64,000 nt of DNA from Burkholderia cepacia (lineage in GTDB: Bacteria; Pseudomonadota; Gammaproteobacteria; Burkholderiales; Burkholderiaceae). Each line of letters starts with the position of its first letter. Positions within the stretch are counted from its first letter, which is position 1. Shown here piece by piece: positions 13,186 to 32,458 of the stretch. The stretch lies in the NCBI RefSeq assembly GCF_029962485.1, contig NZ_CP073639.1, positions 434,001 through 498,000 on the forward strand. Direction: 5' to 3'. The notes beneath the pieces were generated by a model that had not been told where the DNA came from, did not search any database, and was given only the letters and a program-made list of their open reading frames with translations. Both the position numbers and the translations under genes were made by a program.

Positions 13186-13977
13186 TCAGCGCCCGTAGCG
13201 CAGCAGGAAATCCCGCAGTTTCGGATTGACATCGCGCGCATGGGTCAGGTTCGGCGTGTGTCCGGCCCCGGCTACGCCAACCATTCCCTTGGAGTTCGGC
13301 AGCCCTTCGGCAAGCGCCTCGCCGCAACGCAGCGGAATGGCCGCGTCGGCCATGCCATGGACGACGATCGACGCATGCGTGATCTCGGCGAGCCGCGGTG
13401 TGATGTCGTCGCGCGACGTCAGCGCATCGACCGGGTATTCGAAGTGGTCGCGCGGGATCTTCAGCCATTTCTCGATCCATGCAGACGCGGGATAGCCGGC
13501 GCCAAGCAGGAACCCGGCAAGGTGCTCGGCGACGTTGGTCGCGCCATTTCGCGCCCACTCCGTCTTGAGCTCCTCGAACGACGCGATCACCGGTGCGTCG
13601 TCGAGATCGCTGCGCGTCGCGATCAGCGCGAGCGCGCGGAACCTGGCGGGTTCGAGCAGCGCCGCGCGCATCGACACGAAACCGCCCTGCGACATCCCGA
13701 CCAGCGAAGCCGTCGCGATTTCGAGGTGATCGAGCAGCGCGATCAGGTCGCGGGCCGAATCCCAGTAGCTGAACGCGCGGTCGATCGGCCCCGTCGCGCC
13801 GAAGCCGCGCTGATCCCAGACGACACACCGAAACGCGTCGTTCAGTGCGTCGACGTTCGGTCGAAACATGTCGCCGTCCATCAGGAAACCGTGACTGAAA
13901 ACGACCACCGGCGCGTCCTTCGGGCCGGACTCTTCATATGCGAAACGGATACCCTCGCGTTCAAACCAAGCTTTCAT
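13186..13977 (-). CDS. Alpha/beta hydrolase
   Basis: About 263 residues, beginning MKAWFEREGI after GAGAGGCTGAGG. It has the oxyanion motif SHGFLMDGDMF, the nucleophile elbow GMSQGG (Ser), an acid in HGMADAAIP, and the catalytic His in GAGHTPNLTH near the C-terminus. The arrangement fits 3-oxoadipate enol-lactonase and related ester or C-C bond hydrolases, but the substrate cannot be read from the sequence. It is divergent from the AraC regulator at 14315 and lies downstream, on the same strand, of no other gene. Confidence 0.85.
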   Translation of the reverse strand: MKAWFEREGIRFAYEESGPKDAPVVVFSHGFLMDGDMFRPNVDALNDAFRCVVWDQRGFGATGPIDRAFSYWDSARDLIALLDHLEIATASLVGMSQGGFVSMRAALLEPARFRALALIATRSDLDDAPVIASFEELKTEWARNGATNVAEHLAGFLLGAGYPASAWIEKWLKIPRDHFEYPVDALTSRDDITPRLAEITHASIVVHGMADAAIPLRCGEALAEGLPNSKGMVGVAGAGHTPNLTHARDVNPKLRDFLLRYGR

Positions 13978-14087
13978 CCTCAGCCTCTCGTCAACTCGGA
14001 CCAGTCCGGGCAGCGCCGTGCGGCCCGCTCGCTTCACACTCTATCTTTCATGCGTGCGGAGCGATGGTCGTTTGAAGCGACGGCTTA

Positions 14088-14107
14088 CCGGATCGTCCGG
14101 ATTTTTT
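14088..14107 (+). promoter_or_regulatory. Short hairpin with T-run in the hydrolase/AraC intergenic region
   Basis: CCGGA-TCG-TCCGG (14088-14100) followed by ATTTTTT resembles a small terminator or attenuator, but it sits in the 337-base divergent gap 13978-14314 and may instead be a protein-binding dyad. Farther along, TTGACG at 14161 with a 17-base spacer to TTTAGT at 14184 is a weak candidate promoter for the AraC gene. Nothing else is apparent in the gap. Confidence 0.3.
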
Positions 14108-14314
14108 GCTGCATTGCATTTCGATGCGTTGCGCAGGCAGCATTTGCGATCTTCCCCGGATTGACGTGCCGCCGCGCATTTGATTTAGTAGATGGCTTGT
14201 GCGGACGTTCAGGCGACGCCTCTTTATCGCAACGGTGCCAGCTGTTTGCATCGACGCGAAACGGGCGCAACCTGCGACGGCGTTCCAGCCGCGGCGATAC
14301 CGGAGAAGGTTGAA

Positions 14315-15175
14315 ATGGTGCAGGCAGCAATGGAATCGGAAAAGCCGGTGTGGATTCTGCAAGGCGAGTTCGGCCGTGCCACGGTGAACTTCATCAGCCG
14401 GCCGCTGGTCGCTCATGCGCATTCGCAGTACCAGTTCCTGTTCAAACTCGGCGGGAGCGACTGCGAGTTCCGGATAGGTGCCGAGGAATGCACGCTCAGC
14501 GCCGACGCCGCGATCTGCCTGAATCCATGGGTCGAACACGCAAAGTGCGCGAACAAGGACACGCCGTCGCTGATCCTGTCGCTCGTGATCGAAACGCCCT
14601 GGCTGCGCAAACGGCTCGGCCTGGCGGACGGCGGCCCGGCCGATATCTTCCCGCGCAAGCTGGTCGTCGTGACACCGGACGTGCAGCATCACGTCGATCG
14701 TCTGGCGGCCGCCATCACGAATCATCTGGTTGCGCAGGATGCGGGCTGCCTGCCGATTCTCGAGGATCTCGTCACGGCGCTCGGTCGCGATTTTGCCGAT
14801 CCGGAGCTGACCACGCGCATCGCGCCGTCAACGCGCCCGGTCGACTTCAGAATCCGGAAAGCGCTTGATTTCATCAAGCGCGCGCCGTCCGCGAACATGA
14901 CGGTCACGCAGGTCGCGTCCGAGGTCGGGCTGTCGCGGTCGCGCTTTTTCGAGCAATTCCGGCGCTGCATGGGCATCTCGCCGCAGCACTTCATCGACTG
15001 GGTTCGCATGTCGCATGCGATCCGGCTGCTTGCGGAGAGCGACCGGCCGCTCGCCGACATCGCGGACGAGCTCGGCTTCGAAGAGCATAGCCACTTCACG
15101 CGCTTCTTTGCGCAGCACATGGGCGTGCCGCCCAGCGATTTTCGCCGGCATTCGGTCAAGCTCGATCTCGAATGA
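14315..15175 (+). CDS. AraC-family transcriptional regulator
   Basis: About 286 residues from the ATG at 14315, which has GAGAAGG upstream; a longer reading to 14192 lacks a good site. The N-terminal cupin-like sensor domain includes HAHSQYQFLFKLGG and CLNPWVEHAKCA. The C-terminal double helix-turn-helix is complete (MTVTQVASEVGLSRSRFFEQF, then LADIADELGFEEHSHFTRFF ending GVPPSDFRR). It is divergent from the hydrolase at 13186 and convergent with the FAH hydrolase at 15237, which are its nearest possible targets. Confidence 0.9.
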   Translation: MVQAAMESEKPVWILQGEFGRATVNFISRPLVAHAHSQYQFLFKLGGSDCEFRIGAEECTLSADAAICLNPWVEHAKCANKDTPSLILSLVIETPWLRKRLGLADGGPADIFPRKLVVVTPDVQHHVDRLAAAITNHLVAQDAGCLPILEDLVTALGRDFADPELTTRIAPSTRPVDFRIRKALDFIKRAPSANMTVTQVASEVGLSRSRFFEQFRRCMGISPQHFIDWVRMSHAIRLLAESDRPLADIADELGFEEHSHFTRFFAQHMGVPPSDFRRHSVKLDLE

Positions 15176-15182
15176 CTCGACC

Positions 15183-15201
15183 GACCGGCGCGGTCATTTT
15201 T
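15183..15201 (+). terminator. Candidate intrinsic terminator of the AraC gene
   Basis: GACCG-GCG-CGGTC followed by ATTTTTG lies eight bases past the AraC stop codon. The stem is only five base pairs, so the call is tentative, but position, GC arms and T-run all fit. Confidence 0.45.
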
Positions 15202-15236
15202 GCCGCACGCGCGCGGATGCGCGCATGCGGCTCAGG

Positions 15237-16169
15237 TCAGGCCAGCAGTTCCGACGGATCGGCAATCACCGGATTGGCCAGCACGCCCAGTCCGTCGATC
15301 TCGATCTCGACCCAGTCGCCCGGGCGCATGTGCACGAGCCCCGGCGTCGGAAACGGGCCGTACTGGCGCGACAGGTCGTTCCCTTCCGCGTCGTCGGGCT
15401 CCGGCTTCAGCGCGCCCGGCGTTCCCATCGCGATCAGGTCGCCGGGCCGCAGACGGTAGCCGCGGCTCAGATAGCTGACCGTGCGCGCGACGTCGATCAG
15501 CATGTCGTCGAGCGGTGCGCGCTGCCGCACCACGCCGTTGATGCGCGTGAGCACCGTGCGCTTCGCCGGGTCGCCGAACTCGTCCGACGTCATCAGCCAC
15601 GGTCCGTAGGACCCCGATGCTTCGAAACATTTCCCGAGGCCGAATTGCCGGTTGTGCACCTGGTATTCACGCACCGAGCCCTCGTTCAGGCACGTGTAGC
15701 CGGCGACGTAGTCCAGCGCGCGCTCGACGGGGACGTAGCGTCCCGGCTTGCCGATGATCACGCCGAGCTCGCCCTCGTAGTCGAACGCGCGGGCGACCGC
15801 TTCCGGCGGCGCGACGATCGGCTCGCCCGCGCCGACGTAAGAAGCGGCCGTGCGCAGGAACAGATGCGGATAGTCGGGATTCGTTTGCAGCCCCGTCTCC
15901 GCGATATGGCTCTTGAAGTTCAGCGCGAGCGCCCACATCGCGTTCGGCCTGTCGAGGAACGGCTTCAGCGTCACGGACGAGAGCAGCCGCGTGCCGGTCT
16001 TGCCGGCAGCCGATTCGCGCAGGCGTTCGAGCCCGCCGTCCATCTCGAGGATCGCGATCAGATTCGCGGGCAGATCCGGCGCGATTTCCGCGACCGGGAC
16101 GAAGTGGGTGTCGCTTGTGACGACGCCGAGCGCTTGATGGCCGGCGTCCGAGTAAGCAATGATTTTCAT
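15237..16169 (-). CDS. Fumarylacetoacetate hydrolase (FAH) family protein
   Basis: A 310-residue FAH-fold enzyme. Core motifs are MWALALNFKSHIAETG, AFDYEGELGVIIGKPGRYV with the acidic metal ligands, LGKCFEASGSYGPW, and GDLIAMGTPGALKPE. Sequence and length differ from the paralogue at 5422, so they are not a recent duplication. It lies 48 bases downstream of the MFS carrier on the same strand, which suggests uptake and hydrolysis of the same acylpyruvate-like or oxo-acid compound (inference). The Shine-Dalgarno is weak. Confidence 0.88.
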   Translation of the reverse strand: MKIIAYSDAGHQALGVVTSDTHFVPVAEIAPDLPANLIAILEMDGGLERLRESAAGKTGTRLLSSVTLKPFLDRPNAMWALALNFKSHIAETGLQTNPDYPHLFLRTAASYVGAGEPIVAPPEAVARAFDYEGELGVIIGKPGRYVPVERALDYVAGYTCLNEGSVREYQVHNRQFGLGKCFEASGSYGPWLMTSDEFGDPAKRTVLTRINGVVRQRAPLDDMLIDVARTVSYLSRGYRLRPGDLIAMGTPGALKPEPDDAEGNDLSRQYGPFPTPGLVHMRPGDWVEIEIDGLGVLANPVIADPSELLA

Positions 16170-16217
16170 GATTGAGCGTGATTCCGCAAGTTTCCAGGAA
16201 GACGTGTCGAGAACGAT

Positions 16218-17519
16218 TCAGTGCCCGGCCGGCGCGCCGCCCGCGGCCGGTTCGCGACCGCCCGCACGGCGGCCGATGATCGCCAGCGCGCCGAGCGCGG
16301 CAATCGCGGCGATCGCCGGCACCACGGCGACCAGCACGATGTTGCGCGGATCCCAGCCGGTCGCGAGTAGCGCCCCACCGATCGCCGGGCCGACGAACGA
16401 ACCGATCCGCCCGATTGCATGCCCCCAGCCGACTCCGGTGGCGCGGATGCTCGGCGGATACACCGCGACCGCCAGCGCGGTCTGCCCCATGATCCCGTTG
16501 ACGAGCCCCGCGCCGATCACGCCGATCGACAGCAGCACGGCCAACGGCGACAACGCGGCCTGGCTCAGCGCCGCGATGCCGGCGATGACGCAGACGATCC
16601 CCACCGCCAGCGCCGACTTCACACGCAACCGCCCGGATACCGTCATCGCCGTGACCGCGGCCGTCATCAGCAGGTTGCCGCTCAATCCGCCGACACTGAA
16701 CGCGGCCATGCCGGCCGGTGCGCGGTCGAGCGAGAAGCCGAACGAGAGCAGCATGGTCGGCAGCCAGAACAGCAATGCATAGACGTCCATGAAGATCAGG
16801 AACGAGAACAGCCACAGCACGGCGGTATAACCCGCGCGGCCGTCGGCGAACAGCGCGCGCACCGGGCTCGCCACCGGCCGCGCCGGATGCTGCGCGCCCC
16901 TTGCCGGCGATGCTGCCGCGGGCAGGATCCGGAAGAACGCCGGCGCGACCGCGAACGGCAGTACGCCGCCGACCAGGAACACCGACTGCCAGCCGAACCG
17001 GTGCATCAGCGGGCCGCCGATCAGCCCGCCGATCACCGCGCCGACCGACATGCCGGTCGTCACCAGTACCGACGCGGCGACCTTGTGCTTGGTGCCGATG
17101 ATCGTCGCCGATGCCGTGATCGCGATCGGCAGCGCCGCGCCGAGCCCGATCGCCGCCAGGACGCGCAGCACCGACAGCAACGCCACGCTGCTCGCGGACA
17201 TCGTCAGCAGCGTGCAGCCGCCGAACAGCGCGACGCTGGCCAGCCCTACCGCACGAAGTCCGAAGCGATTGGCGAGCGAGCCCGTGACGATGAAGCCGAT
17301 TGCCGCGCCGACATTGGTCGCGACGAATACCGGCGTGAAGGCAGCCGGCGCGAGATGCCAGTCCCGCGCCAGCGTCGGGACGACGAACGAGATCGACGTC
17401 GTATTGAAGCCGTCGAGCACGACGACGAGAAAGCAAACGAGCAGCGCGACTGCCCGGCTCATGCCGCCGACCTCGGCCATGCCGGTGTCGACCGCGGTCT
17501 GTTGATCATTCTGTTTCAC
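16218..17519 (-). CDS. AAHS-type MFS transporter (aromatic/acid:H+ symporter)
   Basis: About 433 residues with twelve predicted membrane spans. The GTG start at 17519 has a strong AGGAGG seven bases upstream. The first helix carries LDGFNTTSISFVVPTLARDW, the DGFD-like motif of the aromatic acid:H+ symporter family with Asp retained. The loop between helices 2 and 3 is GSLANRFGLRAVGL, and the mid-protein helix pair has YPPSIRATGVGWGHAIGRIGS. It probably imports an aromatic or carboxylic acid. It sits between the amidase-like and FAH-like genes on the same strand. Confidence 0.88.
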   Translation of the reverse strand: MKQNDQQTAVDTGMAEVGGMSRAVALLVCFLVVVLDGFNTTSISFVVPTLARDWHLAPAAFTPVFVATNVGAAIGFIVTGSLANRFGLRAVGLASVALFGGCTLLTMSASSVALLSVLRVLAAIGLGAALPIAITASATIIGTKHKVAASVLVTTGMSVGAVIGGLIGGPLMHRFGWQSVFLVGGVLPFAVAPAFFRILPAAASPARGAQHPARPVASPVRALFADGRAGYTAVLWLFSFLIFMDVYALLFWLPTMLLSFGFSLDRAPAGMAAFSVGGLSGNLLMTAAVTAMTVSGRLRVKSALAVGIVCVIAGIAALSQAALSPLAVLLSIGVIGAGLVNGIMGQTALAVAVYPPSIRATGVGWGHAIGRIGSFVGPAIGGALLATGWDPRNIVLVAVVPAIAAIAALGALAIIGRRAGGREPAAGGAPAGH

Positions 17520-17613
17520 TACGTAACCTCCTGCGGCGCGCCCGCGCCGGTTCGCCGTGAAGCGCGACCCGGCCCGGTCGGCCGCTCGTTCCGAAGCCAT
17601 GAAGAACATGCGC

Positions 17614-18813
17614 TTATGCGCGCACGTGGTCCGACAGGCGCCGCAGCATCTCGGCGGAGAAAATGTTCTTCGGCACCATGCAGTGCACGCCTTTCGGCGG
17701 TTCCGTCTTGTAGACGGTTCCGGTCTGGTGCGCGTACTGCGTGATCCGGAAGCTCCCCGCCACGCTCAGGATGCCGTAGCAATCGACCGCCGCAATGCCG
17801 GTGGCCGATGCCATCCAGCCGATCGTTTGACGAATGCACGCAACCAGCGCGTCGTCGAGGCTGTCGGCGAAACCGAAGCCGATCCAGTGCTCCGGGGTCT
17901 CGGCCAGCGGGCCGTTGAGCGACGCTCGCTTGTGAAGCACGAACTGGATGCGCATCTCCTCGAATGCGGATTCGATCGACGTCTGATCGATGTTGCCCTC
18001 GCCCGACGCACCCATCGACCCGCCCGTCCAGACACGTGCGCCGGCCACCTGCACCGGCAGAAAGATCGAGGTGCCGACGCCGAGCACCGCGCAGTCGAGA
18101 TTGCCGCCGTAGCTGCCGGCGAAGTTCGCGCTCGTCACGCGGTCACCGGGCGGCTGGGTGCCGAGATAGGCCTGGAACGGTTTCAGCGGAATCTGCACGC
18201 CCGGCACATACGACGCGTAGGTGCGCGCATCGTCGAACTTCAGGTAACGGAGATACGGACCGAAGTCGCCCGGCAGCGCGCCGACGCCCGGGGGCGCGGA
18301 GTTCCAGCCCCAGTCGATCGGGCGCATCTTCAGCATGCGGCATTCGACGACGTCGCCGGGTTCGGCGCCTTCGATTTCCACGGGCCCGATCAACGAGAAC
18401 GCGCCGTTCGGATATTTCTTGCGGATGGGCTCGCGCTCCTTGAACCCCATCCCGTACTTCGCTTCATTACCCCAGTTGGTCCACGTGCCGTCGTACCACA
18501 CCGTGTCGCCGGACCGGATCGATGCCGCCGCCACCGCATCCGGTGTCATCTGGCCGACCTGCACCGTTTTCCACGATGGCACGAGCTTCACGGTGTTGCC
18601 GCCCGGTACCACGCGCATCGTGGCGGCGTGCGCCTTGGGGGCCGCCGTTTGCGCGCGTGCGACGCCGGCGAAACCTGCCGCGATCGCGCCGAAGCCGAGC
18701 TTGAGCATCGTGCGGCGGCATTGCGAGGTCCCGTCCATCGTCACCGCGCCACGCGTCTCCATGTCGCTTGCCGGGACGTCGCCCGGGTGTTCCATTTCCA
18801 TGTTGTGTCTCAT
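17614..18813 (-). CDS. Tat-exported acetamidase/formamidase family protein
   Basis: A 399-residue protein. The N-terminal region has a twin-arginine signal (CRRTMLKLGFGAIAAGFAGVARA, about residues 32-54), so the folded protein is sent to the periplasm, unusual for this otherwise cytoplasmic family. The body has FmdA/AmdA landmarks: GDTVWYDGTWTNWG, IGPVEIEGAEPGDVVE, FAGSYGGNLDCAVLGVGTSIFLPVQVAGA and MGASGEGN. GGAAG precedes the start. It probably hydrolyses an amide or related substrate before MFS uptake (inference). The gene is 36 bases after the GlcG-like gene. Confidence 0.85.
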   Translation of the reverse strand: MRHNMEMEHPGDVPASDMETRGAVTMDGTSQCRRTMLKLGFGAIAAGFAGVARAQTAAPKAHAATMRVVPGGNTVKLVPSWKTVQVGQMTPDAVAAASIRSGDTVWYDGTWTNWGNEAKYGMGFKEREPIRKKYPNGAFSLIGPVEIEGAEPGDVVECRMLKMRPIDWGWNSAPPGVGALPGDFGPYLRYLKFDDARTYASYVPGVQIPLKPFQAYLGTQPPGDRVTSANFAGSYGGNLDCAVLGVGTSIFLPVQVAGARVWTGGSMGASGEGNIDQTSIESAFEEMRIQFVLHKRASLNGPLAETPEHWIGFGFADSLDDALVACIRQTIGWMASATGIAAVDCYGILSVAGSFRITQYAHQTGTVYKTEPPKGVHCMVPKNIFSAEMLRRLSDHVRA

Positions 18814-22194: not shown

Positions 22195-23202
22195 TCAGCC
22201 GCCGCGCTCGGCATTCCGGCGGCCGAGCGCATCGGTGAGCACTGCTACCAGCAGCACGACGCCGACGACCAGCGGCTGCAGGTTGGCATTGAGGTTCAGC
22301 AGGTTCATTCCATCGATGACGAGGGCCAGGGTCAGACAGCCGAGCAGCGTGCCGAGCAGGGTTCCGGTTCCGCCGAACAGCGACGCACCGCCGATCAGGA
22401 TCGCCGCGATCGCGGGCAGCAGGATCGGATCGCCCATCGCCGAATCGGCCGCATTCACGCGCGCGAGATAAACGACCGCGGCGATCCCTGCCATCAACCC
22501 GCTGATCGTGTAGACCGCAATCCGGCGGCGGCGCACCGGAATCCCGGACAGCCGCGCCACTTCCGGATTCGCCCCGATCGCGTAGATCTCGCGGCCGATG
22601 TTCAGGCGCGCGGTGACGACCGACCCTGCGACCAGCACGAGCAGCATCATGTAGACCGGAATCGGCACGCCCCACCAGAACCCGGTGCCGAGCGCACGAA
22701 AACCGGCCGGGAAGCCGAAGATCTCGTTGCCGCCCATGTAATGAAAGGCGAGCCCCTGCACGACCCAGAGCATCCCGTAGGTCGCTAGGAACGGCGGCAG
22801 CCGCAGGAGCGTGACAGCCAGGCCGTTCAGGAGCCCGATCGACGCGCCGCACGACATCGATATCGCGACGGCGAACCACGGGGAGACACCGGCCTTCATC
22901 GCGCCGGCCGCCAGACAGGCGGACAGCGTGAGGTTCGCGGCAATCGACAGGTCGAACCCGCCCGACAGGATCACGATCGTCAGACCGGATGCGAGCAGGA
23001 ACATCAGGCTGGCCTGGCGCAGGACGTTCAGCAGGTTGCCGGACGTGGCGAAACTGTCCGATGCGAACGCGAGCGCGATGGCAACGACACCGACGAACAC
23101 GGCGCGATAGATCAGCGCGGTCGCGTCTTCGGACAGGCGGCCACGTCGATCGATGCCGATGACGCGCATCGACGCAAGCCGGGATGGGATCTGGATACTC
23201 AT
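22195..23202 (-). CDS. Ribose-type ABC transporter permease (second)
   Basis: About 335 residues, with eight to ten membrane segments of the BPD_transp_2 family. Landmarks are LTIVILSGGFDLSIAANLTLSACLAAGAM, the EAA-like loop GANPEVARLSGIPVRRRRIAVYTISGLMAGIAAVVYLARVN, and LIGGASLFGGTGTLLGTLLGCLTL. The ATG overlaps the preceding permease stop by four bases (ATGA), so the two are coupled and probably form a heterodimeric channel. Last gene of the importer operon. Confidence 0.92.
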   Translation of the reverse strand: MSIQIPSRLASMRVIGIDRRGRLSEDATALIYRAVFVGVVAIALAFASDSFATSGNLLNVLRQASLMFLLASGLTIVILSGGFDLSIAANLTLSACLAAGAMKAGVSPWFAVAISMSCGASIGLLNGLAVTLLRLPPFLATYGMLWVVQGLAFHYMGGNEIFGFPAGFRALGTGFWWGVPIPVYMMLLVLVAGSVVTARLNIGREIYAIGANPEVARLSGIPVRRRRIAVYTISGLMAGIAAVVYLARVNAADSAMGDPILLPAIAAILIGGASLFGGTGTLLGTLLGCLTLALVIDGMNLLNLNANLQPLVVGVVLLVAVLTDALGRRNAERGG

Positions 23203-24179
23203 GCTTGTGCTCCTGCGACGCGGGATTTGAGGACACTGTCGACAACGACGACCGCCAGAACCAGCAGGCCGATCGTCACGACCTGCAGCGACGATTCGAT
23301 GCCGACCAGGTTGAGCGCATTGCGCAGCACGCCGATCGTCAACACGCCGATCACCGTGCCGGGCAACCACCCTTCCCCGCGCTCGAACGACGTGCCGCCC
23401 AGAACGACGGCCGCGATTGCGTCGAACTCCATGCCGATCGCGGCATTCGGCTCCGCCGAGTTCATGCGGCCGACGAGCAGCAGCGCGGCAAGGCCGGCGA
23501 ACAGGCCGCTCATCACGTAGATCGCGACGTGATAGATACGCGCCCGGACACCGGCCAAAGTCAGTGCGTCCCGGTTGCCGCCGATCGCGAACACATAGGT
23601 GCCGAACCGGGTGTGGTAGAGCAGCAGATGCGTAACGGCGTATGCCGCGAGCGCGCAGACGATCGGGAACGGCACGCCGAGTACCGACGAACCGTAAAGC
23701 GCTCCGACGAGCGGATTCGTGACGACCACCGCATTGCCGTCCGTCATCACGAGCGCGACACCGTGCGCGACGCCGAGCGTGCCAAGCGTCACGACGAACG
23801 GCGGCAGCCCCAGGCGCGCGACGAGCGTGCCGTTCAGCAGGCCGATCGCGATGCCGACCGCCGCCGCCGCGCCGAGCGCGGCAACGATGCCGGCGCCGAC
23901 GCCGAGCGACTGCGCGAACACGACGCCGCAGAGGCTCAGCAACGCGCCGACCGACAGGTCGAGCCCCTCGCTCAGGATCACCAGGGTCATCGGCATCGCG
24001 ATCATCACGAGGATCGAGACCTGGAGGCCGATATCGACCAGATTCGCACGCGACGCGAAACCCGGTACGCCGAAAGCCGCCGCCGCGACCAGCGCGACAC
24101 TGGCCCATACGATCGAAGGCAGCGGCCGTTTGCGCCGCGCTGCCGGATCCCTGCCATTCCGTTTCGTTTCAATCGACAT
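23199..24179 (-). CDS. Ribose-type ABC transporter permease (first)
   Basis: About 326 residues from the ATG at 24179, which falls two bases after the ATPase stop. It shows the same RbsC-like pattern as its neighbour: TLVILSEGLDLSVGALLSLCGVVFAQ, LNGTLVARLGLPPFVVTLGTLGVAHGVALV, GGNRDALTLAGVRARIYHVAIYVMSGLFAGLAALLLVGRMNSAEP and VVLGGTSFERGEG. Inner membrane channel subunit of a sugar-like solute importer. Confidence 0.92.
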   Translation of the reverse strand: MSIETKRNGRDPAARRKRPLPSIVWASVALVAAAAFGVPGFASRANLVDIGLQVSILVMIAMPMTLVILSEGLDLSVGALLSLCGVVFAQSLGVGAGIVAALGAAAAVGIAIGLLNGTLVARLGLPPFVVTLGTLGVAHGVALVMTDGNAVVVTNPLVGALYGSSVLGVPFPIVCALAAYAVTHLLLYHTRFGTYVFAIGGNRDALTLAGVRARIYHVAIYVMSGLFAGLAALLLVGRMNSAEPNAAIGMEFDAIAAVVLGGTSFERGEGWLPGTVIGVLTIGVLRNALNLVGIESSLQVVTIGLLVLAVVVVDSVLKSRVAGAQA

Positions 24180-24181
24180 CG

Positions 24182-25687
24182 TCAACCTCCATGCATGGCC
24201 AGACCGAGAATGTTTTGCTCGCTCAATTGTTCGCGCTGCAGTTCGCCCGAAATCGCGCCGCCGCGCATCACGTATGCGCGATCGCATACGTGCACGATCT
24301 CCGACAGCTCCGAGCTGATCAGCAGGACGGCCGCCCCCTCCTCGACCAGCCGCTCGATCAGGTTGAAGATCTCGGTCTTCGCACCGATATCGATGCCGCG
24401 CGTCGGCTCGTCGAAGATGTACAGGCGACACTCGGCACTGAGCCACTTGCCGATCACGATCTTTTGCTGGTTGCCGCCGCTCAGGTTGCGCGCCCGCTTC
24501 GCCGGGTCGCCCGGCGCGATCCGCAGCATGTCGATCAGGTCGCGCGTCGCCCGGGTTGCGCGCGCCGGGCGATACCAGCCCTTCGGGAACAGATGCCACA
24601 GGCTCGACACGAGCAAGTTCTCGTGGACCGAGCGACGCAGGGCGAGCCCCTCCTGCTTGCGGTTTTCCGGAATCAGGCCGACGCCGCGCCTGACGACTTC
24701 GTGCGGGCCGCCCGACACCGGTTTGCCGAAAATCTCGACGCGCCCGCCTTTGATCGGATCGGCGCCGATCACCGCGCGCGCGACCTCGGTCCGCCCGGCG
24801 CCGACCAGGCCCGACAATCCGACGATCTCGCCGCAGCGCACCTGCAAGTCGACCCCGTTCACGCCGGTCGATGTCGTCAGTTCGCGCACGTCGAGCGCCA
24901 TTTCCCCGCATGCACCGAAATACCGGCGCTCGTAGACCGCGCCGACCTTGCGCCCGACCATCAGCGCAATCAACTGGTCGGGGGTCGCGTCGCCGGCCGG
25001 CATCGAGGTCACCAGCCGGCCGTCGCGCAGAACGGTCACGCGATCGCCGAGATCGAACACTTCCTTCATCCGGTGCGAGATGTAGACGATCGCCACGCCT
25101 GCGTCGCGCAACCGGTGCACGACCGCGAACAGTGCGTCGGCTTCGCGGTCCGAGATGGCTGCGGTCGGCTCGTCCATCACGAGCACGCGCGCGTCGTGCG
25201 ACAGCGCTTTCGCAATCTCGACCATCTGTTGCTGCGCAACCCCCAGGTCCGCCGCATGGGTTCGCGTGTCGTACGCGAGCCCGAGTTGCGCGAGCACGAC
25301 GGCGGCATCCGAATGCATGCGCCGGTGATCGACGAGGCCGAAGCGGTTGCGAGGCTCGCGGCCGAGATAGATGTTCTGCGCGATCGACAGATGCGGCACG
25401 AGCGAGAATTCCTGGAAAATCACCGCGATGCCCAGGCGCTTCGCGTCGGCGGGCGATTCGATCGCGACCGGCACGCCGTCGTAGCGGATCTCGCCGCTAT
25501 CGGCACGGTAGGCGCCGAACAACACCTTCATCAGCGACGACTTCCCGGCGCCGTTTTCGCCGAGCAACATGTGCACCTCGCCCGCGTACAGCGTCAGGTC
25601 GACGTCGGTCAGCGCCGCCACGCCAGGAAAATGCTTGCAGATCTTGCGTAATTCGAGACGCGGAACGCGCCCGGTCAAAGTTTCCAT
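24182..25687 (-). CDS. Ribose-type ABC transporter ATPase (tandem nucleotide-binding domains)
   Basis: About 501 residues. The ATG at 25687 has GTGGAG six bases upstream; an ATG two codons earlier abuts the same site. Domain 1 has Walker A GENGAGKSS, a Q-loop IFQEFSLVPHLS, and Walker B VLVMDEPTAA. Domain 2 has a degenerate Walker A (GLVGAGRTE), an intact signature LSGGNQQKI and Walker B LYIFDEPTRGID. This asymmetry is standard in RbsA/MglA/XylG proteins. It powers import with the two permeases and the binding protein. Confidence 0.94.
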   Translation of the reverse strand: METLTGRVPRLELRKICKHFPGVAALTDVDLTLYAGEVHMLLGENGAGKSSLMKVLFGAYRADSGEIRYDGVPVAIESPADAKRLGIAVIFQEFSLVPHLSIAQNIYLGREPRNRFGLVDHRRMHSDAAVVLAQLGLAYDTRTHAADLGVAQQQMVEIAKALSHDARVLVMDEPTAAISDREADALFAVVHRLRDAGVAIVYISHRMKEVFDLGDRVTVLRDGRLVTSMPAGDATPDQLIALMVGRKVGAVYERRYFGACGEMALDVRELTTSTGVNGVDLQVRCGEIVGLSGLVGAGRTEVARAVIGADPIKGGRVEIFGKPVSGGPHEVVRRGVGLIPENRKQEGLALRRSVHENLLVSSLWHLFPKGWYRPARATRATRDLIDMLRIAPGDPAKRARNLSGGNQQKIVIGKWLSAECRLYIFDEPTRGIDIGAKTEIFNLIERLVEEGAAVLLISSELSEIVHVCDRAYVMRGGAISGELQREQLSEQNILGLAMHGG

Positions 25688-25778: not shown

Positions 25779-26789
25779 TCACTTGCTGGCCACGTCGCTC
25801 CAGGCCGGGCATTGACGCTGATCGCCCGGCAGCTCGAACGGCGCATAGTTCGTCTTGTCGATCACGATGCCCTTGATCAGCACGGTGTCGGGCACGGGTT
25901 CCTTGCGCAGCGTGCGGACCGCGGCCATCGTCGCGATGCAGCCCATCTTGAAGCCGTTGAATTCGGCCGTTGCCAGCAACCGCCCTTCCTTGATCGCCTT
26001 GACCGACTCGGGCACGCCGCCGATGCCGACGACCTTCACCTGCTTCTGGCCCGCGGCCTCGAGGGCTTCGATCGCGCCCATCGCCATCACGTCGGCGGCC
26101 GCCAGCACGCCGTCGATCTTCGGATTCGACTGGATCAGGTTCTCCATCACCTGAAGCGCCTGCAGCCGCTGATAGTTCGCCGGCTGCGCCGCCAGCAGGT
26201 GAACGTCCGGGAATTCCTGAAGGGCTTTCCTGAACCCGCGTTCGCGTTCGTCGCTCGTCGTCGAACCCTTCACGCCTTCGAGGATCACGACATTGCCCTT
26301 GCCGCCGAGGCTCTTGAACAGGTAACGCGCGACGTCGAGACCGAGGTTGTAGTCGTCCGCGACCACGACCGAGGAAAACTTGCCGCCCGCCACACGATCG
26401 TTGTAGTTGACGACCGGAATGCCGATCGCGTTGATCTTCTGGATCGCAGGCACGACGCCGTGCGGGTTCACGCCCATGAACAGCACGGCGTTCGGTTTCT
26501 TCACGCCGACGTCTTCCAGCTCGCTCAGTTGCTCGCCGAGATCGTTCGGCCGCGTCGGCGCGTAGTTCGTGACCGACACGCCGAGCTGCTTCGCCTCGGC
26601 GTTGACACCGGCACGAACGAGCGCGAAATGCGGATCGACCTGGTTCTTGTAGAAGGCGGCGATCGTCTCGCTTGCCGCAAGCGCGCTCGCGCCGTGGAAG
26701 ATGCCGATCGTCGCGGCGGACGCGGCGACGATGCACATCGCGGCCCGCTTGCGCGCCGGCTGGCGTTCGGGTTTAAGGTTCGTCTCCAT
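25779..26789 (-). CDS. Periplasmic sugar-type solute-binding protein
   Basis: A 336-residue protein. AGGAG lies seven bases before the ATG. The signal sequence has a basic N-region (PERQPARKRAA) and a core ending SALAA. The Peripla_BP_4 fold is visible in ETIAAFYKNQVDPHFALVRAGVNAEAKQLGVSV, NAVLFMGVNPHGVVPAIQKINAIGIPVVNYNDRV and IDGVLAAADVMAMGAIEALEAAG. Such proteins bind sugars, polyols, cyclitols or autoinducer-2. First gene of the importer operon; a LacI-type operator lies 69-82 bases upstream. Confidence 0.92.
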   Translation of the reverse strand: METNLKPERQPARKRAAMCIVAASAATIGIFHGASALAASETIAAFYKNQVDPHFALVRAGVNAEAKQLGVSVTNYAPTRPNDLGEQLSELEDVGVKKPNAVLFMGVNPHGVVPAIQKINAIGIPVVNYNDRVAGGKFSSVVVADDYNLGLDVARYLFKSLGGKGNVVILEGVKGSTTSDERERGFRKALQEFPDVHLLAAQPANYQRLQALQVMENLIQSNPKIDGVLAAADVMAMGAIEALEAAGQKQVKVVGIGGVPESVKAIKEGRLLATAEFNGFKMGCIATMAAVRTLRKEPVPDTVLIKGIVIDKTNYAPFELPGDQRQCPAWSDVASK

Positions 26790-27169: not shown

Positions 27170-28234
27170 ATGAGCCAATCCCCCGAAGCGCGCGGCACCG
27201 GCCGCGTCACGATTCGCGAAGTCGCCGCGGCGGCATCCGTCAATGCGTCGACGGTGTCGCGCGTGCTCAATCCGGCCACGCGCCACCTGATCGGCGACGA
27301 AGTCGTGCGTCGTGTGCTCGCCGCGGCCAAGTCGCTCGGCTATCGGCAGAACCGGCTTGCCTCCGCGCTGCGCGGCGGGCAATCGAAGGTGATCGGCGTT
27401 TGCCTGCCCGACATCTCGAACCCGGTGTTCCCGCCGATGGTCTGCGGCATCGAGGAGGAACTCGCGGCCGAAGGCTATGGCGTGCTGATCGCGAACATCG
27501 TCGGCAAGCCGAAGAACCAGGAACGGATGCTCGAGCAGATGCTCGAGCGCCAGGTGGACGGCCTGATCCTCGCGACAGCCGCGCGGCACGATCCGCTCGT
27601 GCGGCGCTGCATCCTCGACGGCGTGCCGGTGGTGCTCGTCAATCGCGGCGAGGACGGCGGCCACGTGCCGGAAGTCGTCAACGACGATTTCCTGTCGATG
27701 CGGCTCGCGGTCGAGCATCTGGTCGGGCTCGGGCACAAGCACATCGCGCACCTGTCCGGGCCGGAGCGGCTCGCGACCGGTCTGTCGCGGCTGCAGGGCT
27801 TCCAGATCGCCACCCAGCAGCACGATCTCGCGGCCAACGTCGTCGTGGAAGCAGCCGAGTTCACGCGCGAAGCCGGGCGCCTCGCCTGCGCGCAGTTGCT
27901 CGACACGCATCGCAGCGTGACCGCCATCATCGCGGCAAACGATCTGATCGCGCTCGGCTGCTACGACGTGTTTGCCGAGCGGCGGATCGTGTGCCCGAAG
28001 GACATCTCGCTGATCGGGCACAACGACATGCCGCTGCTCGACATGCTGAATCCGTCGCTGACCACGCTGCGCATCCAGCATCGCGAGATGGGCCGGCAGG
28101 CCGCGCGCCTGCTGCTCGGCATGATCACGACACCGGGCAAGGCGCCGATGCGCATCACGCTGCCGCCGGAACTGATTGTGCGTGGGTCGACCTGTGCACC
28201 GCGGGCGGCAGGCAGCCGGGCGCGCGCGACCTGA
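27170..28234 (+). CDS. LacI-family transcriptional regulator
   Basis: A 354-residue protein. The LacI helix-turn-helix is VTIREVAAAASVNASTVSRVLNP (about residues 13-35), followed by the hinge helix RQNRLASALRGGQS. A ribose-binding-protein-like effector domain (VIGVCLPDISNPVFPPMVCGIEEEL to the C-terminus) follows, with AANDLIALGCYDVFAERR near the core. It is divergent from the ABC importer. Palindromes of the type bound by LacI proteins occur at its own promoter, at the importer, and twice at the dioxygenase operon, so it probably represses all three. The effector may be the imported solute (inference). Confidence 0.92.
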   Translation: MSQSPEARGTGRVTIREVAAAASVNASTVSRVLNPATRHLIGDEVVRRVLAAAKSLGYRQNRLASALRGGQSKVIGVCLPDISNPVFPPMVCGIEEELAAEGYGVLIANIVGKPKNQERMLEQMLERQVDGLILATAARHDPLVRRCILDGVPVVLVNRGEDGGHVPEVVNDDFLSMRLAVEHLVGLGHKHIAHLSGPERLATGLSRLQGFQIATQQHDLAANVVVEAAEFTREAGRLACAQLLDTHRSVTAIIAANDLIALGCYDVFAERRIVCPKDISLIGHNDMPLLDMLNPSLTTLRIQHREMGRQAARLLLGMITTPGKAPMRITLPPELIVRGSTCAPRAAGSRARAT

Positions 28235-28450: not shown

Positions 28451-28801
28451 CTAGTCGCGCGCAGGACGCGCGAACGGCATCGCGAGCAGGATCCTGGCGC
28501 GGCGGTCCGACCGGTTATGCAGCGCACGCCGCTCGCCCGGCGCGAGACGGCACGAATCGAACGCCTGCAATTCGACTTCGACGCCGTCCGCGTCGACGCA
28601 CACCCGGCCTTCCAGCACGACGTAATGCTTCTCGACATCCGACCCGTCCATCGTCGTGTGCCCGCCCGGTTCGATCGTCGACACGCCGAGCCACAGCGAT
28701 TCCGCCGGGCCCGCCTCGCGTCCTTGCAGGCGAACGCATTGCATCCCGAAGTGATTCGGCGGGAAGTAGTCGGGCGCGTCGCGAAAGCGCGTGACGTTCA
28801 T
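28451..28801 (-). CDS. Cupin-domain protein
   Basis: A 116-residue single-domain cupin. Motif 1 is represented by STIEPGGHTTMDGSDVEKHYVVLEGRVCV (His and Glu metal-ligand candidates) and motif 2 by LAPGERRALHNRSD with a His. Its ATG overlaps the stop of the reductase gene by four bases. Last gene of the dioxygenase operon. Small cupins in catabolic operons can be isomerases, decarboxylases or dioxygenases; nothing here decides. The 216-base gap to the LacI gene holds a GC-rich inverted repeat near 28417-28435 that could be a weak terminator. Confidence 0.82.
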   Translation of the reverse strand: MNVTRFRDAPDYFPPNHFGMQCVRLQGREAGPAESLWLGVSTIEPGGHTTMDGSDVEKHYVVLEGRVCVDADGVEVELQAFDSCRLAPGERRALHNRSDRRARILLAMPFARPARD

Positions 28802-29775
28802 GGCTTGAGCAGCACCCGGTTCGCGGTGCCGCCGAATACCGCCCGATACGCGTGTGCCGCATCCGCAAGATCGAACACGGAACCGGCATCGATCGGGAAC
28901 GGCCGCAACGAACCCTGCTCGAACGACGGCAGCAACGCGTCGAGGATGTCGGCGCAGTGTCGCGTATCGAGCGCGAGCGTATCGATGCCGACGTAGGTGT
29001 GCTGTCCGCGATAGAACGCGAAGATGTCGAACGGCACCGCACGCTCGATCGTCGAGATCAGGATTTGCGTGCCACGCACGGCCATCGCGCGATTCGCACG
29101 CTCGAAGTACGGACTCCCGACCGTGTTGTAGACGATGTTCGCGCCGCGGCCGGCCGTCATCTCGAGCACGAGCTCGTCGAACGGTTCCGCGGACGCATTG
29201 ATCATCGTGACATCACCGTTTGCGTGCCCGATGTACGACGGATCGTCGCGCACGACACCGATCACCTCCGCCCCCGCCATGGTCGCCAGCTGGACGGCCG
29301 CCTGCCCGACCTTGCCGTTGGCGCCCAGAACGAGCACGACGTCGCCGCGTCGCACGCCGCCGGCACGGTGCAAGCCCTCGAAAGCGGTGACGAACGGTAC
29401 GCCGATCGAGCCTGCCTCGTCCATCGTCAGGTTTGCCGGTTTCTCGCGCACGCTGTGCGTCGGCACGACGAGATGGCTGGCGTGGGTGCCGTCGCGACGG
29501 ATGCCGAGCTCGCCGCTGCTGCCCCAGACTTCCTTGCCGATCAGGCCCGGCGGGCCGTCGATCACGCGCCCCGCGTAGTCTCGCCCCGGCGTGCGCGGCC
29601 ACACCGCGTGCGGCATGAAACCGAGCACGGCCTTCACGTCGCTCGGGTTGACGCCCGCGCTCTCGATTTCGACCAGGCAGTCGGTCGTATCGATCGTCGG
29701 GACAGGTTGCGTGTCGATGCTCAGTGCGAGCGCGCTGATATCAGCGCTTTTCTGCTGGACGCGAATGCATTTCAT
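28798..29775 (-). CDS. Zinc-free MDR-family NAD(P)H oxidoreductase (quinone/enoyl reductase type)
   Basis: About 325 residues, starting MKCIRVQQK with AGGAAA upstream. It has the GroES-like N-terminal domain (VEIESAGVNPSDVKAVLG, PRTPGRDYAGRVID) and a Rossmann domain with VLVLGANGKVGQAAVQLATMAGAEVIGV. The cysteine cluster and catalytic Cys/His of zinc alcohol dehydrogenases are absent, so it is a quinone-oxidoreductase or 2-enoyl-reductase type enzyme. In this operon it could reduce the double bond of a ring-cleavage product such as maleylacetate (inference). Confidence 0.88.
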   Translation of the reverse strand: MKCIRVQQKSADISALALSIDTQPVPTIDTTDCLVEIESAGVNPSDVKAVLGFMPHAVWPRTPGRDYAGRVIDGPPGLIGKEVWGSSGELGIRRDGTHASHLVVPTHSVREKPANLTMDEAGSIGVPFVTAFEGLHRAGGVRRGDVVLVLGANGKVGQAAVQLATMAGAEVIGVVRDDPSYIGHANGDVTMINASAEPFDELVLEMTAGRGANIVYNTVGSPYFERANRAMAVRGTQILISTIERAVPFDIFAFYRGQHTYVGIDTLALDTRHCADILDALLPSFEQGSLRPFPIDAGSVFDLADAAHAYRAVFGGTANRVLLKP

Positions 29776-29880
29776 GCTCGATGGTTTCCTGGAAAATGTC
29801 GATTCGGACGCATGGCGCGGTGACCGTCGGCCCGTCGCGCATCCATGCGCCGCTCTTGAATACCGTGTGTCGCGTTGCAC

Positions 29881-30762
29881 TCAGCGCGCGAGACCAAGGC
29901 ATTCGCGCGCGTCGCGGCTCGTCGCGATCTCGCCGCCGAGCAGCGTGACGATCTCGCGTGCCCGCGCGACGAGCGCCGCGTTGCTTTCGGCGAGCACGCC
30001 TTTCTCGATATAGATGTTGTCCTCGAGACCGACACGCACGTGTCCGCCCGCGAGCCACGCCTGCGCGACGATCGGAAACTCGAAACGCCCGATCCCGAAC
30101 GCGGACCATATCGCGCCCGGCGGCAACAGCCCGCGCGCATAGAGCAGGGTTTCCGGCGACGCCGTGAATCCATACTTGACGCCGCTGACGAAGGTCCAGA
30201 GCCCGGGGCCGTCGAGCACGCCGCTCGCAATGAGGTCCCGCGCCAGGTGGATATCGCCGGAGTCGAAAATCTCGAGCTCAGGCTTCACGCCGGCCCGGCG
30301 GATTACTTCGGCCATCCGCGTAACGTTCTTCGGCGTGTTGATCACCACATCGCCCCCCGAATTCATCGTGTTCAGGTCGAGGCTGCAGATGTCGGGCCTG
30401 AGCGCGAGTATGTGTTCCACGCGCTTTTCGGGCGGCAGGAGCGTAGTGCCCGGCGCGGCCACCTTGGGATCGTCGTCGCTCGGAATGAAACGCCCGCCCG
30501 GGCCGGTCGTCAGGTTGATGATCAGTTCGCGATCGACCGCGCGAATCCGGGCCATGACGTCGCGATAGAGATCGACGTCCATCGAGGGTCTGCCCGTGGC
30601 CGGATCGCGGACATGGATATGCACGACGGCGGCGCCGGCCTGCGCGGCTTCGAGCGAAGCATTCGCGATCTGCTCGGGCGTGACCGGCAGGCCCGGATGC
30701 TGGTCGGGTCGCGTGATGTTGCCCGTAACGGCGCAGGTAATGATGGTCTTGCGAGCATGCAT
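29881..30762 (-). CDS. Beta-keto acid cleavage enzyme (BKACE, DUF849)
   Basis: About 293 residues from the ATG at 30762 with GGAG eight bases upstream; a TTG further up is rejected. BKACE landmarks are ITCAVTGNITRPDQHPGLPVTPEQIA, the zinc-binding HIHVRD (His48 and His50, with Arg52 and Asp53), LTTGPGGRF and HVRVGLEDNIY with the third ligand Glu. The family condenses a beta-keto acid with acetyl-CoA to give acetoacetate and a new CoA ester. Its presence with a ring-cleavage dioxygenase suggests 3-oxoadipate or a similar keto acid as substrate (inference). Confidence 0.92.
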   Translation of the reverse strand: MHARKTIITCAVTGNITRPDQHPGLPVTPEQIANASLEAAQAGAAVVHIHVRDPATGRPSMDVDLYRDVMARIRAVDRELIINLTTGPGGRFIPSDDDPKVAAPGTTLLPPEKRVEHILALRPDICSLDLNTMNSGGDVVINTPKNVTRMAEVIRRAGVKPELEIFDSGDIHLARDLIASGVLDGPGLWTFVSGVKYGFTASPETLLYARGLLPPGAIWSAFGIGRFEFPIVAQAWLAGGHVRVGLEDNIYIEKGVLAESNAALVARAREIVTLLGGEIATSRDARECLGLAR

Positions 30763-30780
30763 CGAAAGGTCTCCAGGCAA

Positions 30781-31530
30781 TCAGTTCAGCCGGCGGCCAC
30801 CGTCGACGACGATCGTTGCGCCGGTCGTGAACGTCAACGTCGTCGCGCAGGCGACGATGGCGGTCGCGACATCGTCCGGTGCGCCGATCCGGCGAAGCGG
30901 TGTCGTCGCGGCGGCCTTTTCGTTGAAATCGTCGCCGCGCCCGGGAACGAACTGCGTATCCACGACGCCGGGCGATACATTCACCACCCGAATGCGCGGC
31001 GCAAGCGCGCGGCCGAGCGACAGCGCCATCACGTCGATGCCCGCCTTGGCCGCGCAATAGGCGACGTTGCTGCCGTTGCCGGTCGTGCCCGCGATCGACG
31101 ATACGTTGACGACGAGCCCGTCGCCGGATTCGTCGAGCAGCGCGCGAAAGGCGCGGATCGCCGCGAACTGGCCGCGCCAGTTGACTTGCATGATCTCGTC
31201 GATCAGATCGTCCGTCAGTGCGTCGAGATCCGCGTGACGAACCGGCTTCGTGAAGCCGGCGGCGTTCACCAGGATGTCCGCACGCCCGTAACGCGCGCGC
31301 ACCTCGTCGGCCAGTGCGGCGAGCGTCGCGCTCTCGGTGATCGTCGCGACCGCGGCGGAATGCCCGTCGCCGGGCAGCGTGTCGGCGAGGCGCTGCGCCG
31401 CATCGAGGTCGCTTCGCCCGACCACGACCACGCGCGCGCCCGCTTCGGCGAAACGCGCCGCGGTCGTGACACCTATCCCGCCCGTACCGCCGAGAACGAC
31501 AGCGACTTTATCCTTCAGATTGCGTGACAC
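30781..31530 (-). CDS. Short-chain dehydrogenase/reductase
   Basis: About 249 residues. The GTG start at 31530 has AGGAGA upstream and follows the dioxygenase stop by 13 bases. Classical SDR motifs are present: VLGGTGGIGVTTAARF (cofactor loop), a basic residue after GRSD suggesting NADP(H) is possible, NVSSIAG with the catalytic Ser, YCAAKAG (Tyr and Lys) and a C-terminal GATIVVDGG. In this operon it may oxidise an alicyclic alcohol toward the aromatic substrate or reduce a keto product (inference). Confidence 0.92.
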   Translation of the reverse strand: MSRNLKDKVAVVLGGTGGIGVTTAARFAEAGARVVVVGRSDLDAAQRLADTLPGDGHSAAVATITESATLAALADEVRARYGRADILVNAAGFTKPVRHADLDALTDDLIDEIMQVNWRGQFAAIRAFRALLDESGDGLVVNVSSIAGTTGNGSNVAYCAAKAGIDVMALSLGRALAPRIRVVNVSPGVVDTQFVPGRGDDFNEKAAATTPLRRIGAPDDVATAIVACATTLTFTTGATIVVDGGRRLN

Positions 31531-31543
31531 GACTCTCTCCTGT

Positions 31544-32458
31544 TCAGTCGATCGGCGGCGTCGGGTACGTCGGCGTACCGTCGGCCATGACGAATTCGAA
31601 ATCGAGCGTGTAGTACACCTCGTTCGTTTCAGCGTGTGGCCCCGTCCGCGGGTCATGACGCTCGAAATTGCCGACGAGGCGACGATTCACGCCAAATACG
31701 ACGTCCGAGTCGAGATGCTCGGAATCGTCGGCAAACACCTGCGATACCAACGTCGCATAGCCTTCGGCGACGATCACGAAATGGATGTGCGCGGGCCGGT
31801 ACGGATGACGGTTCTGCGCATCGAGCAGCGCGCCGACCGGGCCGTCGACGGGCACCGGGTATCCGGCCGGGCGCACGGTGCGGAAGTTGAACCACCCTTG
31901 CGCGTCGGTATGAAAGCGACCGCGCAGGTTGCGCTCGGGCTGGCTCGGATCCTGGTTCTCGTAAAGACCGACCGGCGATGCCTGCCAGACGTCGACTGTC
32001 GCGTTCGCGACCGGCCGGCCCGACACGTCGAGCACACGGCCGCGCATGAACAGCGGCGAGCCAGGCGACCCCGCGCTTGCGATCGACTGGCCTTGCTCGT
32101 AGACCGGCGAACCGCCACGGTAGAACGGCCCGAGCAATGCGCCCGGCGTACGCTCCGTCGAGTCGGAATTGTTCAGCAATGCGACGAGCGTTGAAAAACC
32201 GAGCACGTCGGCCAGGAGCACCACCTCGTTGTGTCGTTCGTTGCACGCATGCCCGGCGGCACGGATGAAGGAGAGACCGCGCTCGAACTCCTCGTCGGTC
32301 AGCTTCACCTGCTTCAGGAACGCGTGCCCATGATCGACCAGCGCATCGACGATCTCCTTCAACCGGGCGTCCCGGGTTCCCGCCATCGCCGCCTTGACGA
32401 TCGCGGTAACAGACGCGGGATCGTCGGTAATCGCACTTGCAACTGTCTCTTCCGTCAT
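31544..32458 (-). CDS. Intradiol ring-cleavage dioxygenase (hydroxyquinol 1,2-dioxygenase type)
   Basis: About 304 residues. The ATG at 32458 has GGAG six bases upstream; an upstream in-frame ATG at 32470 lies in the operator. The N-terminal dimerisation domain (LKQVKLTDEEFERGLSFIRAAGHACNERHNEVVLL) is followed by the catalytic domain with GPFYRGGSP. The Fe(III) ligand set is complete: Tyr166 (GLYENQDP), Tyr200 (RPAGY) and His224/His226 (RPAHIHF), at the same numbers as in catechol 1,2-dioxygenases. The GPFYRGG form favours hydroxyquinol cleavage to maleylacetate; catechol is the alternative. First gene of a five-gene operon. Confidence 0.9.
   Translation of the reverse strand: MTEETVASAITDDPASVTAIVKAAMAGTRDARLKEIVDALVDHGHAFLKQVKLTDEEFERGLSFIRAAGHACNERHNEVVLLADVLGFSTLVALLNNSDSTERTPGALLGPFYRGGSPVYEQGQSIASAGSPGSPLFMRGRVLDVSGRPVANATVDVWQASPVGLYENQDPSQPERNLRGRFHTDAQGWFNFRTVRPAGYPVPVDGPVGALLDAQNRHPYRPAHIHFVIVAEGYATLVSQVFADDSEHLDSDVVFGVNRRLVGNFERHDPRTGPHAETNEVYYTLDFEFVMADGTPTYPTPPID

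Follow-up and report, generated by a model that had tools for sequence, protein, structure and literature searches.

A five-gene block on the minus strand (28451-32458) of a 64,000-nucleotide stretch of Burkholderia cepacia DNA (NZ_CP073639.1, positions 434,001 to 498,000; this whole stretch is termed the window) is best explained as a hydroxyquinol-type catabolic operon whose lower end consists of a medium-chain dehydrogenase/reductase (MDR) and a beta-keto acid cleavage enzyme (BKACE). The explanation is offered tentatively, with slightly less than an even chance of being right. The genes stand in the order intradiol dioxygenase, short-chain dehydrogenase/reductase (SDR), BKACE, putatively zinc-free MDR and small cupin. 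An initial annotation of this DNA had read the same five genes in the same order, and it is borne out: frames and starts were checked and all frames are intact, and each of the five families scores above its Pfam cut-off. Ribosome-binding-like sequences are found upstream of several starts, and the cupin and MDR frames share 4 bases at the MDR stop. The genome comprises three contigs (7.7 Mb, 100% completeness), and the window lies on contig C3 (893 kb).

In the proposed route, a hydroxyquinol-type aromatic would be brought in by a lineage-dependent transporter, here perhaps a sugar-type ABC system, and the operon would probably be controlled by a LacI-family regulator. The dioxygenase would open a 1,2,4-triol ring to give maleylacetate; maleylacetate would then be reduced to 3-oxoadipate, most likely by the MDR, since zinc-free MDRs are suited to reducing an enone C=C bond; and the BKACE, by the chemistry of its family, would combine 3-oxoadipate with acetyl-CoA to yield succinyl-CoA and acetoacetate. 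The SDR and the cupin may act upstream, or the SDR may handle a hydroxy acid or acetoacetate. The block would replace the maleylacetate reductase of the iron-containing alcohol dehydrogenase type (Fe-ADH), the 3-oxoadipate CoA-transferase and the thiolase. Gene order, conservation, intact catalytic residues and nearest relatives form the direct basis of this scheme, and the reactions themselves are predicted. The chemical idea was already that of the initial annotation; it is the simplest fit, with about an even chance, and it owes this standing to an aspartate of the dioxygenase (Asp83, see below) and to the gene order.

Conservation of the gene block

The window BKACE was searched in 65 genomes of the genus, 398 of the family and 398 of the phylum, in named genome contigs and in plasmids. 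Set A consists of 57 stretches chosen from the own-genome, genus and family matches, set B of the best 80 loci of a longer list from the named contigs, set C of 18 stretches from plasmids (500 records matched the BKACE, 60 of these were listed and 17 were chosen from them; one more was found via its dioxygenase), and set D of all 6 matches of the phylum scan outside the own genome. Sets A, B and C have some genomes in common. A neighbour was counted as linked when it lay within 8 kb of the BKACE.

Where the BKACE is at least 70% identical to that of the window, both dioxygenase and SDR are linked at 37/39 (A), 76/80 (B) and 3/3 (C) loci, and all four partners at 34/39, 71/80 and 2/3. At 60-70% identity, dioxygenase and SDR are found together at 1/6 (A), 6/9 (C) and 3/6 (D) loci, and below 60% at 0/12 (A) and 1/6 (C). 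On account of the counts at 70% and above, the conservation of the block is far beyond chance, and the operon posited in the initial annotation is real and widely conserved. Both Beta- and Alphaproteobacteria carry it, and a LacI regulator is often nearby: among loci with a BKACE of at least 70% identity, a LacI match of at least 39% lies within 8 kb at 32/39 (A) and 63/80 (B). At homologous loci the cupin usually adjoins the MDR. Over 124 loci, the pairwise distances of the dioxygenases correlate with those of the BKACEs (r = 0.81, a raw value with relatives and duplicates included).

Each of the 65 genomes searched within the genus contains a BKACE match at E 1e-60. A close orthologue (at least 92% identity) is present in only 6/65, the own genome included, and is missing from the only other genome of the same species; the block is therefore accessory.

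The ring-cleavage dioxygenase and the BKACE

Ranked against solved structures, the window dioxygenase is nearest to PnpC (3n9t, 228.8 bits), followed by a 6-chlorohydroxyquinol dioxygenase (207.1 bits) and hydroxyquinol dioxygenase 1tmx (203.8 bits), versus 130.0 and 127.8 bits for the best chlorocatechol and catechol chains. It is 43% identical to the classical hydroxyquinol-type dioxygenase of its own genome. The columns of two Tyr and two His, which we take to be the iron ligands, are invariant in 124/124 BKACE-linked dioxygenases. The hydroxyquinol pocket is presumed to be formed by Leu80, Asp83, Val107, Phe108, Ile199 and Val251 (1tmx count); a literature search with Asp83 and hydroxyquinol listed papers that were unrelated by title and opening of the abstract, and the list stays our assumption. 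Leu80 and Asp83 are kept in the linked enzymes. Position 83 is Asp in 124/124 of them (40/40 in a smaller alignment) and in 9/9 hydroxyquinol-type sequences, and Ala in the two CatA-type enzymes of the genome. Position 251 is Val in 67 linked enzymes, Thr in 55 and Ala in 2.

These data also bear on a catechol-type operon, in which the dioxygenase would cleave plain catechol and the remaining genes would be unrelated cargo. Two records do annotate homologues as catechol 1,2-dioxygenase, but the bit scores favour the hydroxyquinol enzymes, identity to the two CatA-type enzymes of the genome is just 33-34%, and the conserved neighbours showed no gene of the muconate cycloisomerase type, a family for which no specific search was made. 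A catechol operon is considered very improbable.

Dioxygenase trees were built from 55-56 sequences (40 BKACE-linked, five Hpa-linked, nine hydroxyquinol-type and one or two CatA-type outgroups). In these trees the linked enzymes group with the Hpa-linked ones, at weak support (FastTree 0.56, UFBoot 76), and a description of the linked enzymes as a well-supported sister clade was dropped on these values. The nine hydroxyquinol-type sequences form no clade with two outgroups and are drawn as a clade with one. Because the support is weak and the hydroxyquinol-type sequences are no clade with two outgroups, the claim is limited to placing the window dioxygenase, by its sequence, in a group of its own close to the hydroxyquinol enzymes. 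The cleavage of hydroxyquinol posited in the initial annotation is thus upheld as to resemblance, since bit scores and Asp83 point to hydroxyquinol and not catechol enzymes, but is weakened by the separate grouping and by pocket positions that differ.

Five Rhizobiaceae dioxygenases (L241-L244, L246) make up a strongly supported subclade (0.999 and 100) nested inside the linked group. Their neighbours include an HpaH-like hydratase, an HpaI-like aldolase and a CHM isomerase in 5/5 cases, and AroQ and shikimate dehydrogenase in 4/5. These dioxygenases have Gly83 (5/5) and Gln251. As the alignment reads, a change of the presumed pocket residue 83 accompanies a change of the downstream route; it counts as one event because it is confined to one subclade.

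The BKACE matches Pfam PF05853 over the full length of the profile (1-274 of 274). Columns for the zinc ligands His, His and Glu are occupied as expected in 128/128 sequences (the window and 127 loci, duplicates kept), and all 128 have an arginine in the loop after strand 3. The same column is R in 6/6 sequences above the NCBIfam 3-oxoadipate cut-off, a column match that is uncertain because loop lengths differ. The arginine would argue at most for a substrate with an anionic far end.

Weighing the proposed route

Several observations weigh against the route through 3-oxoadipate. In the dioxygenase pocket, Val107 is replaced by Leu and Ile199 by Val in 124/124 linked enzymes, and Phe108 by Leu in 124/124, although Leu is also present there in 3/9 classical enzymes; given these differences at 107, 199 and, for the most part, 108, a substituted substrate is possible. 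Against the NCBIfam model for 3-oxoadipate:acetyl-CoA acetyltransferase (NF053568), the window BKACE scores 181.5 bits, below the cut-off of 350, and its loop length differs from that of the 3-oxoadipate type. The loop arginine is also found in 23/26 BKACEs without a dioxygenase; it therefore marks a subfamily and not a substrate, and was ruled out as a unique mark of dioxygenase-linked BKACEs. Acetoacetate would still need activation to its CoA ester. The genome also carries, on contig C1 at 1421.1-1423.4 kb (L229:7092-9743), a classical hydroxyquinol-type dioxygenase and Fe-ADH pair, near which lies an alpha/beta hydrolase (named by eye); the question is therefore why a second module would be kept. 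Nothing in the window matches Fe-ADH (the family of maleylacetate reductase), the PcaJ-type CoA-transferase (TIGR02428) or PcaF (TIGR02430), which agrees with the initial annotation that the standard genes are not near. Outside the window, however, the genome has two PcaJ/ScoB-type matches and two PcaF matches above the cut-off, so that freedom from CoA-transferase and thiolase holds for the window and not for the genome.

The closest solved relative of the BKACE also differs in its reaction. BsfD (PDB 9ZSC, 361.6 bits) belongs to the biosynthesis of the antibiotic flavophos and, according to the available text of PMC12871164, acetylates a phosphonate beta-keto acid by acetyl transfer without BKACE cleavage. 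In common with the window enzyme it has the zinc ligands, the loop arginine and Phe166, a Phe at the position that this text calls catalytic Tyr. The window gene could on this likeness encode a C-acetyltransferase that forms a diketone and cleaves no keto acid. The Phe, though, is found equally in 128/128 BKACEs of the set, in 6/6 of the 3-oxoadipate family and in 26/26 BKACEs without a dioxygenase. It is therefore no argument against cleavage and no mark of acetyl transfer, and was ruled out as a sign of BsfD-like chemistry. BsfD, moreover, comes from a phosphonate antibiotic cluster, and the window gene lies in a catabolic-looking block. Such an acetyltransferase is regarded as very improbable here. 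Retro-Claisen cleavage with acetyl-CoA is predicted for the window BKACE by analogy, and BsfD illustrates that the fold alone is no proof of it. The cleavage of 3-oxoadipate proposed in the initial annotation is thus favoured by the subfamily's conserved arginine, whose alignment with that of the 3-oxoadipate type is uncertain, and disfavoured by the missed NCBIfam cut-off and the different reaction of BsfD. Two genomes of the window's genus (loci L099, L100) have BKACEs of 57-58% identity whose neighbours resemble, by eye, the flavophos cluster described in the available text of PMC12871164.

As for the MDR, the window protein has the quinone-oxidoreductase-type motif VNPSD, and VNPSD and G-NGKVGQ are kept in at least 97% of 121 aligned sequences. 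Its relatives include zinc-free enoyl and quinone reductases, and the protein itself is predicted to bind no zinc. It is a candidate for C=C reduction of maleylacetate, which would suit the family. At six dioxygenase-linked loci from four genomes (L067/L116, L070/L145, L143, L146), however, the MDR is missing, and the role of maleylacetate reductase given to it in the initial annotation is therefore a guess. An MDR of 41-42% identity lies on the other strand at three of these loci (L070, L145, L146). Fe-ADH-type genes are near six loci (L111, L117, L119, L148, L188, L191), of which only L119 is without a window-type MDR. An anticorrelation of MDR and Fe-ADH was looked for, and none of the six dioxygenase-linked loci without MDR has a nearby Fe-ADH-type gene.

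The relationship of the MDR to enoyl and quinone reductases is consistent as well with a different sequence of steps, in which the BKACE would cleave maleylacetate itself to maleyl-CoA and acetoacetate and the MDR would act as an enoyl-CoA-type reductase to give succinyl-CoA. Chemically, maleylacetate has the beta-keto acid motif, and the BKACE precedes the MDR in gene order. Maleyl-CoA, on the other hand, is generally expected to be unstable. On an Agrobacterium tumefaciens plasmid (L119), in addition, a hydroxyquinol-type dioxygenase and a gene annotated as maleylacetate reductase are found ~4-6 kb away from a BKACE 67% identical to that of the window. This arrangement points to 3-oxoadipate and counts for the proposed route; the L119 dioxygenase groups with PnpC and the 6-chlorohydroxyquinol dioxygenase (support 0.95). 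Direct cleavage of maleylacetate is judged improbable.

The SDR has its active-site Ser, Tyr and Lys in at least 97% of 125 aligned sequences, and no PDB relative reached E 1e-35. The scheme of the initial annotation left the SDR and the cupin without a role. The SDR may catalyse an upstream step, oxidize a beta-hydroxy acid or reduce acetoacetate. Pairs of SDR and BKACE without a dioxygenase at L122, L234, L256 and L076/L142 also count against the route, as a hint that an SDR product, and not maleylacetate, may feed the BKACE. At L122, L234 and L256 the SDR is 48-52% identical to that of the window, and a quinone-oxidoreductase-type gene is also present; the L256 cluster has an HpaI-like aldolase too. 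The anaerobic phloroglucinol pathway was considered for the SDR and BKACE and ruled out: the available text of PMC10470551 describes a ring opener of a 'cyclase' family and no ring-cleaving dioxygenase, and cupins are unmentioned in it. For the cupin, the PDB gave a single, weak match (E 0.0032), and NCBIfam a single family, from Mycobacterium and named 'beta-D-galactosidase' (107.7 bits, below the cut-off of 175), an unlikely name for a cupin profile of 113 positions.

Such pairs also favour an alternative in which the ring substrate is a substituted or other polyhydroxybenzene and the SDR helps to make a different beta-keto acid for the BKACE, such as a 3-oxo diacid bearing a hydroxy or methyl group. 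Further in its favour are the dioxygenase group with private residues, pocket positions included, the strongly supported nested subclade with its different pathway, the separate classical hydroxyquinol module, and the finding of sugar-type, TRAP, tripartite, branched-chain-type and MFS transporters. The constancy of Asp83 in the linked enzymes speaks against it, and among the clustered neighbours no extra conserved block enzyme was seen that would handle a substituent. This alternative is thought unlikely but by no means negligible.

Adjoining genes and related pathways

A LacI gene and a sugar-type ABC transporter, absent from the initial annotation, adjoin the block in the window (Table 1) and also in other genomes.

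Table 1. Genes of the block and adjoining genes in the window
Feature	Position	Strand	Basis
Intradiol dioxygenase, uncharacterised group nearest hydroxyquinol 1,2-dioxygenases	31544-32458	-	Pfam Dioxygenase_N/C; PDB ranking; trees
SDR oxidoreductase	30781-31530, GTG start	-	Pfam adh_short_C2
BKACE	29881-30762	-	Pfam BKACE 332 bits, cut-off 24.8
MDR reductase, quinone-oxidoreductase type, predicted zinc-free	28798-29775	-	Pfam ADH_N + ADH_zinc_N
Small cupin	28451-28801	-	Pfam Cupin_2 36.8 bits
LacI-family regulator	27170-28234	+	Pfam LacI
CUT2 sugar-type ABC substrate-binding protein	25779-26789	-	Pfam Peripla_BP_4
CUT2 ABC ATPase	24182-25687	-	Pfam ABC_tran; NCBIfam AraG/RbsA-like, below cut-off
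CUT2 ABC permease	22195-23202	-	Pfam BPD_transp_2
Second ABC permease	about 23199-24180, approximate start		Reading of frame

Orthologues of the sugar-type ABC transporter adjoin the block in the closest relatives, and at 2/6 phylum-scan loci (L255, L257) they are 44-56% identical, with the ATPase linked in both and the substrate-binding proteins at 44-53%. Its binding protein lies within 8 kb at only 9/39 (A) and 4/80 (B) loci. The system possibly imports the growth substrate in this lineage. Elsewhere the block is found with tripartite, TRAP, branched-chain-type or MFS transporters; at L073 the adjoining MFS protein resembles aromatic-acid symporters, below the cut-off. A RidA-family protein is encoded shortly before the sugar-type ABC genes at L255:1211-1741 and L257:11524-12054, and L257 also has DoxX-like and YciI proteins; YciI (TftG-like) proteins may be a sign of hydroxyquinol chemistry.

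FAD monooxygenases stand beside two loci (L124, L203) and amidohydrolases near some; the monooxygenases and the symporter-like protein at L073 count for the proposed aromatic route. A gamma-carbonic-anhydrase-like hexapeptide protein is encoded at 26/147 clustered loci, with PaaY and carbonic-anhydrase scores below cut-off. In three neighbour scans, 4/10, 4/10 and 1/10 neighbouring frames had no Pfam match. Within the window, 13186-18813 holds alpha/beta hydrolase, fumarylacetoacetate-hydrolase-type, MFS and acetamidase/formamidase-type genes with an AraC regulator, a gene content suggestive of another possible catabolic cluster.

BKACE proteins have been linked to other aromatic branches. In Methylobacterium pca clusters without pcaIJ and pcaF, a DUF849/BKACE protein is proposed to convert 3-oxoadipate and acetyl-CoA to succinyl-CoA and acetoacetate, and transfer of a cluster with kce and van genes to another strain led to growth on aromatics (PMC8963497, PMC12379598, as far as the available text goes). 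This system is alike in having a BKACE in place of PcaIJ/PcaF within a ring-cleavage cluster, but it belongs to the protocatechuate branch, with PcaHG, PcaB and PcaL, whereas the window has a hydroxyquinol-like dioxygenase, SDR, MDR and cupin. A COG3246 protein beside catBCD in Ralstonia eutropha H16, also of the BKACE family, has been proposed to cleave beta-ketoadipate in the catechol branch (PMC6449761, available text). It is possibly the source of NF053568 and, if so, represents another BKACE subfamily than that of the window. Substrates of BKACE group G3 include beta-ketoadipate in the available text of PMC4922564, and that of PMC8963497 speaks of G4. The deoxyribonate pathway, in the accessible part of PMC6365646, likewise has an SDR beside a BKACE and acetoacetate as proposed product, but its substrate is a sugar acid and there is no ring cleavage. 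With the classical hydroxyquinol pathway the window block shares its kind of ring-cleaving enzyme and, probably, the intermediates; it differs in being without Fe-ADH reductase, CoA-transferase and thiolase, and in the distance of its dioxygenase from the classical one of the genome.

The BKACE shortcut has already been proposed in the literature for two other branches, those of protocatechuate and catechol. A literature search joining hydroxyquinol with BKACE terms gave no paper with both, and the hydroxyquinol version looks like a third. The fuller proposal, of a third BKACE-terminated aromatic branch formed by a LacI-linked operon with its own dioxygenase group, an MDR as non-homologous maleylacetate reductase, a BKACE replacing CoA-transferase and thiolase, and a nested switch of residue 83 together with HpaH/HpaI, is possible but rather doubtful.

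The BKACE route alone would save no CoA, as acetoacetate needs activation, and by our bookkeeping only reduction or export of acetoacetate would make the net yield differ from that of the classical route. If the proposed route is true, many soil bacteria would complete hydroxyquinol catabolism by an alternative lower pathway, in which a non-homologous maleylacetate reductase and a BKACE replace Fe-ADH, PcaIJ and PcaF, and annotation by the classical genes would label these routes as incomplete. The joint change of dioxygenase residue 83 and the genes downstream would lend itself to testing the co-evolution of substrate choice and pathway.

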